A DNA stretch of 64,000 nucleotides from a virus. The notes under the pieces are model-generated. The model was not told the origin of the DNA. It worked only from the letters and a program-made list of their open reading frames with translations, and made no database searches. Positions 11,934 through 54,441 of the stretch are shown in pieces. Where the stretch lies: IMG/VR virus record IMGVR_UViG_3300025585_000032, positions 62,001 through 126,000 of that record; one strand, 5' to 3'. How positions within the stretch are numbered: the first letter of the stretch is position 1; each line of letters starts with the position of its first letter. Made by a program: the position numbers and the translations under genes.

Positions 11934-12551
11934 TTATATAAACTTTGGTCCAACGACCCATATGACAATTGATTTTCTAATTCCTCGTGTCACGGGATTT
12001 ACTCTATGAATGAGATATGAGGGGAAAAATATGATTCTCCCTCTTTTCATGATTACTTTTTCTGGTTCATTTTGATTTCCAACATTTATTTCAAATTCAC
12101 CACCCTCAAAGTCTTTTTCTGGATCTGATAGACACATAACAACTGATAGTTTTCTCGTCGTATTTGGAGTGCTTTGACCATGCAATATGTCCATATGCCA
12201 GTCATATTTTCCATCCTCGGAAGCGTGATATTCGGTATATTGAATATCACGATATCCGTTTAAATTATAGTTATAGTAGTTTTCATTTATCGTTGTTATG
12301 ATTGAATTGAATTTATCAAATATCCAACTTGTGTTTTCATCTTTTGTATAAAAGTGAACTTTTGATTTTCTTATTTTTTCAAGTTCTTGCTCATCTTGGG
12401 TTCCAACAACTGTCGCTTTTTGCAATTCGTTCGAAGAACATATTTCTTCGATTTTTTTTAGTTCATCATCATTAAATCCATTATCCCAATAAGCCCATGA
12501 ATATGTTACATTTGATCTTTCTTCAGGATTGTTGGATAATACTTTGTACAT
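11934..12551 (-). CDS. 2OG-Fe(II) oxygenase (prolyl 4-hydroxylase-like)
   Basis: 205 residues, the only clearly real gene on the - strand. It carries the complete iron/2-oxoglutarate set: H119-x-D121 (DWHMD), distal H182 (LIHRV) and R192 ten residues later (GIRKS), within a typical jelly-roll order (LSVVMCLS, EGGEFEI, GRIIFFPS). Phages of marine T4-like groups often carry such oxygenases; substrates are unknown and could be proteins (fibre proline or other residues), nucleic acid or small molecules. The start is taken at the ATG with complement at 12549-12551, behind a GGAG; a GTG at 12563 is a longer alternative. It abuts the tip adhesin tail-to-tail. Confidence 0.85.
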   Translation of the reverse strand: MYKVLSNNPEERSNVTYSWAYWDNGFNDDELKKIEEICSSNELQKATVVGTQDEQELEKIRKSKVHFYTKDENTSWIFDKFNSIITTINENYYNYNLNGYRDIQYTEYHASEDGKYDWHMDILHGQSTPNTTRKLSVVMCLSDPEKDFEGGEFEINVGNQNEPEKVIMKRGRIIFFPSYLIHRVNPVTRGIRKSIVIWVVGPKFI

Positions 12552-12578
12552 GAAGTTCTCCACATGACAATTTTTTCA

Positions 12579-50950: not shown

Positions 50951-51526
50951 ATGATAGAAGGTGGTATGCTAAAAATCAATACGGCGGCGCAAACGATTCG
51001 TCCGTATGAAATCTATGATCTTGTGAAATCAACTGATCCAGTTCTCAAGCAAATCTGCAAGCCATTTGATTTTGCAAATCCCCCTATTGATCCAATTCAT
51101 CTCTCATCGTCTTTGTTTGAGACGATGTTCAAGCATAGTGGTCTTGGATTGTCTGCGCCACAAGTTGGAATACCATATCGTGTATTTGTCATTGGATATG
51201 ATAACACGAACAAGCAAGTGTTTTTCAATCCAGAGATCATTGAGAAATCAGAGCGTGAAGACGATCATCTTGAAGGATGCTTATCATTCAAAAGATTGTT
51301 TTTCAAGATTTCTCGTCCGCAAGAAATCAAGATCAAGTATCAGCATGTTAGCGGCAAATGGGATGAAACTAAGTTCGTAGGCTTGACCGCTAGATGTATT
51401 CAGCATGAGATGGATCATCTTGATGGCATTTGTTTTACGGATAGAGTTGGTAAGACAACTCTTATGATGGCAAGAGAAAAAGAACGCAAATTGAGAATAA
51501 AGATGACCAGAGATGCTAGAAAGTGA
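50951..51526 (+). CDS. def: Peptide deformylase
   Basis: 191 residues. All three deformylase motifs are present: GLGLSAPQVG (64-73), EGCLS (108-112) and QHEMDHLDG (151-159), giving the Cys-His-His metal site with catalytic Glu153. The enzyme removes the N-formyl group from nascent proteins. Deformylase genes are frequent in cyanophages, where they are thought to aid host protein turnover during infection. The enzyme could start at Met6; the ATG at 50951 has an AAAGGAAAG Shine-Dalgarno. Confidence 0.9.
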   Translation: MIEGGMLKINTAAQTIRPYEIYDLVKSTDPVLKQICKPFDFANPPIDPIHLSSSLFETMFKHSGLGLSAPQVGIPYRVFVIGYDNTNKQVFFNPEIIEKSEREDDHLEGCLSFKRLFFKISRPQEIKIKYQHVSGKWDETKFVGLTARCIQHEMDHLDGICFTDRVGKTTLMMAREKERKLRIKMTRDARK

Positions 51527-51719
51527 TTGGAGATACTGGGAGAAGCATGACATGAAAGATAGTGAGTTTCTTTTTTGGTTGAGAGATAGACTCATCAATG
51601 TCTACGGTGAAGATCCACATATCGACTATGTTCAAAAACTATATTCCATAGCCAGAAAAGTGGAAGATGATGAGAACTATTGGAATAGAGTAATAGATAG
51701 TTCTAGACAAACAGACTAA
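51513..51719 (+). CDS. Small acidic protein after deformylase
   Basis: 68 residues, overlapping the deformylase gene by 14 bases. Rich in Trp, Tyr and acidic residues (DWRYWEKHDMKDSEFLFWLR, YGEDPHIDYVQKLY). Helical, soluble, unrecognised. Its last codons contain the -35 box of the promoter for the modification cassette. Confidence 0.5.
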   Translation: MLESDWRYWEKHDMKDSEFLFWLRDRLINVYGEDPHIDYVQKLYSIARKVEDDENYWNRVIDSSRQTD

Positions 51720-51732
51720 ATCATGTTATGAT
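51704..51732 (+). promoter_or_regulatory. Sigma70-like promoter of the modification cassette
   Basis: TAGACA at 51704-51709, 17-base spacer, TATGAT at 51727-51732; each hexamer differs from consensus at one base. The -10 also forms one arm of a small inverted repeat TATGAT/ATCATA (51727-51746) with an eight-base loop. The cassette start codon is 24 bases after the -10. Confidence 0.65.
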
Positions 51733-51756
51733 TGTTTTTTATCATAGGATATCGTG

Positions 51757-52989
51757 ATGTACCAAAAATATACCGTTGATGATGTAAAGAAGTCTTCCGC
51801 TCGTAAATTGTTCAATGTGATTTCCACGTTTGCTGGCGGCGGTGGCTCTTCTACTGGATATCGTCTTGCTGGTGGTAATATCATCGCAATCAATGAATTC
51901 GTTGAAGAAGCAATCAAGACATACTCAACGAACTTTCCTGACACCAAGATCATACCCGGCGACATCAAGAAATTGACTGCAAAAGACTTTCTTGATACAG
52001 CTGGACTCAAGCCTGGCGAACTTGATATTCTTGATGGATCTCCACCGTGTTCAGCATTCTCTGTTGCAGGTAAGCGCGAGAAGGGTTGGGCTGGACATGT
52101 CACAGATACACGCAAGTCATACTTTGACGATGATGGTAATATCATTGAAGAAGGCGAACTTCTTGTTCAAGAAGGTATCAAGAAGTACTCTGATGGCAAG
52201 ACCGTAGAAGCCATTGAAGATCTATTTTTGGAATTCATTCGTATCGCAAAAGAGATCAAGCCAAAGGTAATCGTTGCCGAGAACGTCAAAGGCATCACGT
52301 TTGGTGAAGCCAAAAGCAAACTATATGAGTTTGTCAATTCGTTTGAAAAGATTGGATATCAAGTTACATATCAGGTATTGAATGCAGCAGATTTTGGTGT
52401 GCCACAAGCAAGAGAGCGTACTCTATTTGTCTGCATACGCGAAGATGTATGTGATGCAATTGGCTTGAACTTCCTCAATATTCACTCTACTGTTTTTCCT
52501 AATGCAACATATGCAAAGCACATATCTTTGCGCGAGGCAATTGAAGACATAGAGAATGATCCGAACGAATTGCAGGAACTCTATGACTATGTGCAAAATG
52601 GCTTTCAAAAAGATTGGATCACGAAACTACCTTTCAATCCAACAAGACATACAAAGCCATCGGACAAGGAATTTCGCGATTGGAATCCCAAGGCATCATG
52701 CTTCAACATGATTCGCCCATGTCCAGATCTTCCGTCTCCAACTTTGACTCAGCGCGGACAACAGAAGTCCGTATCTGGCGTGTTTCACTATGCCGAGAAT
52801 AGAAAGTTCACGATCAAGGAATTGAAGCGTATCATGAGTCTACCCGAAGACTTTGTTCTTACAGGCACGTTTGATCAACAGGCTGAGAGAATTGGACGCA
52901 TGGTTGCACCAAAGATGATGGCTGCTCTTGCAGGTAGCATCTATGAAAATGTTTTGAAGCCATATAATGATAGCCAAGTTACTAAGTGA
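51757..52989 (+). CDS. Cytosine-C5 DNA methyltransferase with motif X Asn-to-Arg; predicted Cx-SAM user
   Basis: 410 residues. All C5-methyltransferase motifs are visible: motif I FAGGGG (25-30), motif IV GSPPCSAFS with catalytic Cys98, motif VI ENV (175-177), motif VIII QARER (217-221), and a target-recognition region of about 130 residues. In motif X the usual Gly-Asn-x-Val reads IGRMVAP, with Arg381 (codon CGC at 52897-52899) instead of Asn. In M.MpeI, as I recall, engineered basic residues at this Asn permit carboxy-SAM use. The downstream overlapping genes include a carboxy-SAM synthase homologue, so I infer it writes 5-carboxymethylcytosine rather than plain 5-methylcytosine. A GTG three bases upstream is an alternative start. 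Confidence 0.9.
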   Translation: MYQKYTVDDVKKSSARKLFNVISTFAGGGGSSTGYRLAGGNIIAINEFVEEAIKTYSTNFPDTKIIPGDIKKLTAKDFLDTAGLKPGELDILDGSPPCSAFSVAGKREKGWAGHVTDTRKSYFDDDGNIIEEGELLVQEGIKKYSDGKTVEAIEDLFLEFIRIAKEIKPKVIVAENVKGITFGEAKSKLYEFVNSFEKIGYQVTYQVLNAADFGVPQARERTLFVCIREDVCDAIGLNFLNIHSTVFPNATYAKHISLREAIEDIENDPNELQELYDYVQNGFQKDWITKLPFNPTRHTKPSDKEFRDWNPKASCFNMIRPCPDLPSPTLTQRGQQKSVSGVFHYAENRKFTIKELKRIMSLPEDFVLTGTFDQQAERIGRMVAPKMMAALAGSIYENVLKPYNDSQVTK

Positions 52990-53758
52990 AGAAATAGAAA
53001 AAGCATCAAACGATATCAACGTCGCTGTACTTTTGTCTGGCGGCGTTGATAGCATTTCTGTGGCATTAGCAGCACATCGTGTTGGTAAGAAGATTACTGC
53101 ATACACGTTTCATCTAAAAGACCAGCCGACATATGATGCAAGTAAAGCACAAGAAATAAGTAAGATCATGGGTTGGTCGTGCAAGACGATTGAAATTCCT
53201 GTTGACAATGTTATACGGGATTTCATTCGCCTTCGTCGTGAAGTAGATTGTCAGAAGAAGACACACTATGAATGCTGCTTTCCTTTTCTATATGTCTATC
53301 CGCAAATAGAAGAGAAAGAAGTGCTTAGTGGATGGGCTGCCGATGGTTACTATGGCGTATCCAAGAAAGCCAATCTACACTACAAGCATACGATGGAAAA
53401 GTTCAACGAATTTCGTGAAGATTATTTTCTGCTTGATCACTGTGCTGGCTATCTTTGGCACAAGAGGATTGCTGATATGCACAACAAGATCTTTATCACA
53501 CCATATCTAACCGAGCCAGTAAAACAGTTTTTTTGGACCAAAGACTGGTATGAATTGAATCAGCCATTTCAGAAACACCATGTAGTAGAAGCATTTGATG
53601 AATTTTCTAGATTTGGTGCCGTAAAGAAACACATCAATCTGCAATTGGGCTCAGGTGTTGACAAACTGTTTGAATCTGTTATAATACCTGACAAGACGAT
53701 CAACTATCGTAATAGAAAACGCATCATGGATATTTGCAAGGATTGGAGAAATAGATGA
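52967..53758 (+). CDS. Asparagine synthetase-like PP-loop ligase
   Basis: 263 residues. PP-loop SGGVDS at 24-29 after a VAVLL strand, and a second ATP-site motif SGWAADGYYG (121-130) at the position of the SGxGxDExxGGY motif of asparagine and beta-lactam synthetases. These enzymes adenylate a carboxylate and then add ammonia or an amine. There is no N-terminal glutaminase domain, so nitrogen would come from free ammonia, a separate amidase or another amine. It overlaps the methyltransferase by 23 bases and the CmoA-like gene by four. In this context the natural substrate could be the carboxymethyl group on DNA; that is inference. Confidence 0.75.
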   Translation: MIAKLLSEEIEKASNDINVAVLLSGGVDSISVALAAHRVGKKITAYTFHLKDQPTYDASKAQEISKIMGWSCKTIEIPVDNVIRDFIRLRREVDCQKKTHYECCFPFLYVYPQIEEKEVLSGWAADGYYGVSKKANLHYKHTMEKFNEFREDYFLLDHCAGYLWHKRIADMHNKIFITPYLTEPVKQFFWTKDWYELNQPFQKHHVVEAFDEFSRFGAVKKHINLQLGSGVDKLFESVIIPDKTINYRNRKRIMDICKDWRNR

Positions 53759-54441
53759 CACAAAAATTTACATTTGCCCAGCGCGAAGAGGGTTTTGACA
53801 ATCACATTAGCCAGTCCATTCGCGGATACAACGACTTGATTGGTGATGTCATCAATCTCTCGCAGTATTTTGTAGAGAACGATACTGTCGTCTATGATAT
53901 CGGCTGTTCAACTGGCAAGATGCTTCGTGCAATGATTGGTCAGAACGAGAAAATTGCACCTCGTGCCAATTATGTAGGAATTGAGATTGAAGAAGATTTC
54001 TTCAAGTTCTTTGATGAGAATGTTCAGAGTAATTTGGAGTTCATTCGGAATGATGTGCGTGATGTAAGTTTTGCTGTCAATACATCTTTGATCACTTCTA
54101 TTTTCACTCTTCAGTTCATGCCCAGACAAGATCGTCAGGATGTCATCAATCAAATCTATAACTGTTTGATTCCCGGTGGGGCGTTCATCTTTGCCGAGAA
54201 GACGATTGGCAACAATCCGATGATTCATGAGATGCGTACATTCACCTACTATGATTTCAAGAAACTCAGTTTCACCTATGACGATATCATGACGAAGGAA
54301 AAGAAACTGCGTTCCATGTTGAAGTCCAATAGTCGTCAGGAATTGATTGAAATGTGTGAGATTGCTGGATTCAATCCCAATTCAATTGATTCGTTCTGGC
54401 AAAACTTTGCGTTTACTGGATTCATTGCAATCAAGAACTGA
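53755..54441 (+). CDS. CmoA-like carboxy-SAM synthase
   Basis: 228 residues (E. coli CmoA: 247). It aligns by eye along its whole length with CmoA, not only in the SAM fold: SIRGY (21-25, CmoA SVPGY), YDIGCSTG (47-54, YDLGCSLG), FTLQF (117-121, identical), a long IPGGAFIFAEK block (139-149), YDFKK near 166-170, RSML (186-189) containing the Arg equivalent to CmoA Arg199, and FWQNFAF near the end (WFQCFNF). CmoA makes carboxy-SAM from SAM and prephenate. No CmoB, its tRNA partner, is visible. Coupled to the preceding gene by ATGA. Confidence 0.85.
   Translation: MTQKFTFAQREEGFDNHISQSIRGYNDLIGDVINLSQYFVENDTVVYDIGCSTGKMLRAMIGQNEKIAPRANYVGIEIEEDFFKFFDENVQSNLEFIRNDVRDVSFAVNTSLITSIFTLQFMPRQDRQDVINQIYNCLIPGGAFIFAEKTIGNNPMIHEMRTFTYYDFKKLSFTYDDIMTKEKKLRSMLKSNSRQELIEMCEIAGFNPNSIDSFWQNFAFTGFIAIKN

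Follow-up and report, generated by a model that had tools for sequence, protein, structure and literature searches.

A three-gene cassette in a T4-like virus of bacteria very probably (at about 0.92 by our estimate) constitutes a CmoA-CmoX-CmoY DNA hypermodification system, with the full predicted pathway to 5-glycylcarboxymethylcytosine (5gcxmC) and glycine as the most likely amine. We infer the reactions in this phage from the protein sequences, the conserved residues and the association of the genes. The cassette is most likely a further example of the already described CmoX-CmoY-CmoA system of Synechococcus phage S-B43 (Yang et al., Nat Commun, 7 December 2025; PMC12783734). Thus, the statement of an earlier, sequence-only reading of this DNA that no natural example had been described does not hold; our literature searches returned no further paper on a natural example besides that one. 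In S-B43, SAM and prephenate are the substrates from which CmoA forms carboxy-SAM (Cx-SAM); CmoX, which rejects SAM, forms 5-carboxymethylcytosine (5cxmC) at GC motifs; CmoY uses glycine and ATP and ligates the amino acid to 5cxmC; and 5gcxmC was detected in virion DNA (PMC12783734). The same study listed 5,615 candidate CmoX sequences (SPPC + Arg) in viral databases and demonstrated that CmoX-treated DNA resists HhaI in vitro (PMC12783734). With the present cassette, 5cxmC hypermodification, reported only recently and from cyanophage S-B43, would also occur in another T4-like lineage, in which the genes are ordered differently.

The cassette and its genome setting

The window, i.e., the whole stretch of 64,000 nucleotides analysed here, spans bases 62001-126000 in a virus record of 142,041 bases. 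The cassette consists of the following genes:

51757..52989, + strand: CmoX gene, 410 aa from ATG; predicted DNA cytosine-C5 carboxymethyltransferase; SPPC with Cys98, QARER, motif X ERIGR with Arg381
52967..53758, + strand: CmoY gene, 263 aa; predicted AMP-forming amide ligase, PP-loop SGGVDS, asparagine-synthetase-like, no glutaminase domain
53755..54441, + strand: CmoA gene, 228 aa; predicted Cx-SAM synthase (SAM + prephenate), phage subtype

An ORF check of the window found all three genes intact at these coordinates, and together with matches to PF00145, PF00733 and TIGR00740 this confirms the earlier claim of three overlapping genes for a C5-methyltransferase, a glutaminase-free ligase and a full-length CmoA homologue. 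The CmoX and CmoY genes overlap by 23 bp and the CmoY and CmoA genes by 4 bp (ATGA), while an in-frame GTG is present at 51754, ahead of the CmoX ATG. On the 5' side the cassette is preceded, on the + strand, by a peptide deformylase gene (50951-51526, PF01327) and then by an ORF of 68 aa. The surroundings are T4-like, with a gp55-like late sigma factor, a gp47/gp46-like nuclease, and clamp and clamp loader; the portal, sheath, terminase and capsid-scaffold genes lie further left.

Cassettes with identical proteins are present in three IMG/VR contigs, and the gene order X-Y-A is the same in homologous cassettes of other viral contigs. In comparison with cassettes in three other viral contigs, the number of changes at codon position 3 was 74-115 for CmoA, 89-105 for CmoY and 111-183 for CmoX, with far fewer base changes at positions 1 and 2 in all three genes; this third-position bias indicates that the cassette genes are under protein-level (purifying) selection.

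Two other features of the record were observed. A 2OG-Fe(II) oxygenase gene (PF13640) is located on the - strand at 11934-12563 of the window, inside a run of + strand genes. Outside the window, the same record carries a permuted tmRNA of the alphaproteobacterial type (L185:3374-3742; RF01849, 127 bits; ARAGORN tag ANDNYASEMALAA), and this type suggests an alphaproteobacterial host.

Promoter candidates

The sequence-only reading had placed the three genes behind one promoter. Two candidate sites are relevant here:

51704..51732, + strand: candidate cassette promoter, TAGACA-17-TGTTATGAT (TATGAT)
53658..53685, + strand: candidate internal CmoA promoter within the cmoY frame, perfect sigma-70 TTGACA-16-TGTTATAAT (TATAAT) with a TG extension

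Given the upstream site, a single promoter driving all three genes is plausible. However, promoter-like sites in the region are not above chance (7 versus 8.9 +/- 3.0 in shuffles). A different promoter-like TGTATAAT occurs at approximately the same place in four relatives (L007, L009, L013, L017). The internal site is intact in five of eight related cassettes (L006, L037, L007, L008, L017) and degenerate in the remaining ones (L009, L010, L013).

CmoX carries the arginine of a carboxymethyltransferase

CmoX belongs to the C5-methyltransferase family (PF00145, E=6e-58) and has its standard motifs. Its best match in the PDB is S-B43 CmoX itself (8yf3; E=1e-110, 373 bits, residues 4-401), with the next structure, M.HaeIII, at 94 bits; pairwise identity to the S-B43 enzyme is 49% over essentially the full length. 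In S-B43 CmoX, Arg350 occupies the position of M.HhaI Asn304 and contacts the carboxylate of Cx-SAM (PMC12783734). Alignment by phmmer and MAFFT places Arg381 of the window CmoX in this column, and F25, E47, F48, D69 and C98 are identical in both residue and number between the two proteins. Viral contigs retrieved by means of CmoA yielded 109 CmoX frames (66 distinct), and the Arg is kept in every one. The earlier proposal that the phage makes its own Cx-SAM to feed the adjacent C5 enzyme is therefore supported, both by Arg381 and by the one-to-one homology with S-B43.

The target motif is a different matter. The loop following SPPC comprises 40 residues in the window CmoX versus 21 in S-B43 CmoX (19 longer), and the specificity region is only 28-29% identical, in comparison to 62% for the conserved core. 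With such divergence the GC motif may not carry over from S-B43, and the window CmoX may recognize a motif other than GC. The GC dinucleotide, examined as a hint of the target motif, is not depleted in the window (rho(GC) 1.16). In some relatives in the lineage of the window phage, CmoX is present as a tandem pair of overlapping genes that differ in the specificity region (L119, L120, L121, L122, L124, L140, L094/L146, L099, L101/L150), and both copies retain SPPC and the Arg; the L119 pair is 59% and 37% identical to the window specificity region. It thus appears that target motifs have diversified among CmoX enzymes; the tandem copies, together with the divergence of the specificity regions, suggest a series of carboxymethyltransferases that differ in the DNA motif recognized. 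Such enzymes would be useful for site-specific DNA labelling, with the carboxylate as handle, and could serve to test whether the modification protects DNA from restriction.

CmoA is of the phage subtype with a shifted arginine

The CmoA protein matches TIGR00740 over its full length (E=6e-28) with 98 bits, below the equivalog cut-off of 193, and by this profile it is a divergent member of the family. It is 46% identical to S-B43 CmoA over essentially the full length, and 28% identical to E. coli CmoA. When its predicted structure was searched with Foldseek, the CmoA proteins of E. coli and H. influenzae ranked first (TM 0.80-0.83).

In E. coli CmoA, Arg199 forms a salt bridge to the Cx-SAM carboxylate (PMC3663124), and the sequence-only reading had named this carboxylate-binding Arg as a feature to be checked in a structure-based alignment. 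The corresponding column in the window CmoA holds Glu182, with Arg186 four residues on, i.e., one turn further along the same helix; the predicted structure shows no break in this lid helix (residues 175-188). The Arg is therefore not in register, but the active S-B43 CmoA has the same shift, and the register failure thus does not refute CmoA activity. The carboxylate-binding Arg has probably moved by one helical turn with its role kept. The window CmoA and the proven SpCmoA have a KEKxLRxML lid helix in common, and the Glu/Arg arrangement occurs in 98 of 99 related CmoAs from viral contigs. Phage CmoA proteins fall into two classes: KRxxLEGV, as in E. coli, is found in PaBG, Dickeya AD1, Erwinia Y3 and Alcaligenes Afa-NA1, and KxxxLRxx in the window, S-B43, S-CRM01 and staphylococcal phages. 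S-B43 CmoA, a member of the latter class, is approximately 10x faster than the E. coli enzyme (PMC12783734).

CmoY and the choice of amine

A profile search assigned CmoY to PF00733 (Asn_synthase, E=5e-12) and revealed no glutaminase domain. A search of PDB sequences gave nothing useful (best E=0.3); the predicted structure (pLDDT 89.8) matched beta-lactam and asparagine synthetase domains in Foldseek. CmoY is 51% identical to S-B43 CmoY over 262 columns, essentially the full length (E=5e-82). Since the SpCmoY cluster was defined by a threshold of 1e-56 (PMC12783734), the window CmoY very probably belongs to it, and members of this cluster are said to retain the residues that bind the glycine carboxylate (PMC12783734). 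Use of glycine was shown for the glutaminase-free type (PMC12783734), while the glutaminase-fused type is predicted to use ammonia. Glycine is therefore most likely the amine joined by the window CmoY. Of the earlier suggestions for the ligase step, conjugation fits the homology to S-B43 CmoY, but plain amidation to carbamoylmethyl-dC is not the first expectation for a ligase of the glycine-using, glutaminase-free type.

Gene association in viral contigs

With CmoA as bait, CmoX was found within 4 kb of CmoA in 79 of 80 CmoA loci in viral contigs, which bears out the expected co-occurrence of CmoA and C5-methyltransferase genes. CmoY was within the same distance in 47 of these 80 loci. When CmoY served as bait, neither partner was present within 4 kb in 60 of 81 loci. 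A check of twelve larger contigs showed CmoA in six, lying some way off in several of these; those lacking it were fragments of 24-52 kb. The ligase gene is thus often not adjacent to its partners. No ParB-domain partner, a common neighbour of CmoX (PMC12783734), was found in the sister 197-kb record or in S-B43. In Dickeya phage AD1 (L022:3156-5855), the gene of a DUF1611 protein lies between CmoA and a CmoY-like gene, and this protein possibly performs a further modification step.

Proposed pathway and alternative explanations

In the proposed pathway, CmoA would produce Cx-SAM from SAM and prephenate. CmoX would flip cytosine out of its target motif, with Cys98 attacking C6, and transfer the carboxymethyl group of Cx-SAM, held by Arg381, to C5. 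CmoY would then adenylate the carboxylate of the resulting 5-carboxymethylcytosine with ATP and couple it through an amide bond to a small amine, glycine being the most likely one, to give 5-glycylcarboxymethylcytosine. A genome modified in this way would be protected from host restriction, which we infer to be the selective pressure. At 46-51% identity, homology speaks well for the reactions, moderately for the amine and poorly for the DNA motif. The amine is the main point at which a departure from this scheme has to be considered: CmoX and CmoA could act as proposed while CmoY joins another amine (an amino acid, ammonia or a polyamine) and creates a base other than 5gcxmC. The identity of only 51% to S-B43 CmoY would allow this, as would the other ligase clusters reported, whose pocket residues differ and whose amines had yet to be tested (PMC12783734). 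Nevertheless, we regard it as unlikely, given the strength of the S-B43 match and the very probable SpCmoY membership, and the lack of a glutaminase domain argues against ammonia in particular. That a non-GC motif of CmoX and a non-glycine amine of CmoY should coincide, placing an undescribed hypermodified cytosine in the virion, seems quite improbable.

Two further explanations would dissociate the genes. Since CmoA proteins are known chiefly from tRNA modification, and the record contains six tRNAs, including tRNA-Leu(UAG) and tRNA-Leu(UAA), CmoA might act in the cmo5U34 modification of the wobble position in tRNAs of the phage or its host, next to an ordinary 5mC methyltransferase. No CmoB was found in the sister 197-kb record (NF011650), and a PF08003 search of the window's own 142-kb record matched only CmoA itself; as these records could be partial, this absence carries little weight. 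In addition, CmoX has the Arg of S-B43 CmoX, an enzyme taking only Cx-SAM (PMC12783734), and related CmoA loci adjoin CmoX in all cases but one; we consider a tRNA role highly improbable. It is also conceivable, from the PF00145 match and the standard motifs, that the methyltransferase is an ordinary SAM-using phage enzyme surrounded by unrelated moron genes. However, Arg381 stands where M.HhaI has Asn, the S-B43 enzyme with this Arg does not use SAM (PMC12783734), and the gene association is conserved, so that this possibility can hardly be credited.

Comparison with known and divergent systems

The predicted DNA hypermodification cassette of the window resembles that of S-B43 in having the same three families, adjacent and overlapping on one strand and matching one-to-one, with the diagnostic Arg, SPPC, the cofactor residues, a glutaminase-free ligase and the shifted-Arg CmoA subtype. 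It differs in gene order (A-Y-X in S-B43, X-Y-A in the window), in sequence (46-51% identity, with the longer post-SPPC loop and the diverged specificity region) and in phage lineage, and the permuted tmRNA suggests another host. Synechococcus phage S-CRM01 also has adjacent CmoA and CmoX genes, each approximately 51% identical to those of the window, but CmoY was not found within its 10.7-kb locus; 5cxmC may be the end product there, or the ligase may be encoded elsewhere. The CmoA/CmoB cmo5U34 pathway of E. coli shares the Cx-SAM synthase family and chemistry; however, its target is tRNA and not DNA, the cassette has neither CmoB nor a hydroxylation step, and the Arg is shifted by one helical turn from the E. 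coli position.

In three jumbo phages, Dickeya phage AD1 (L029), Erwinia phage Y3 (L030) and Yersinia phage fHe-Yen9-02 (L031), the CmoX-like methyltransferases carry an intein-like insert exactly at the catalytic cysteine (SPP/CFTE...VVHN/CKGFS). The CmoX Arg is retained in these proteins (ERLGR), and their genes lie approximately 13-17 kb away from CmoA and CmoY. C5-methyltransferase genes also adjoin CmoA in a Staphylococcus phage SPbeta-like sequence (L019, 4675-5673) and in vB-SscS-F1 (L020, 6461-7468), the latter with CmoY as well. In both of these enzymes motif X reads VGGVIN, without the CmoX Arg, and SPPC is replaced by SPCQ; judged by these residues, they are a divergent class, which would escape the SPPC+Arg filter of PMC12783734.
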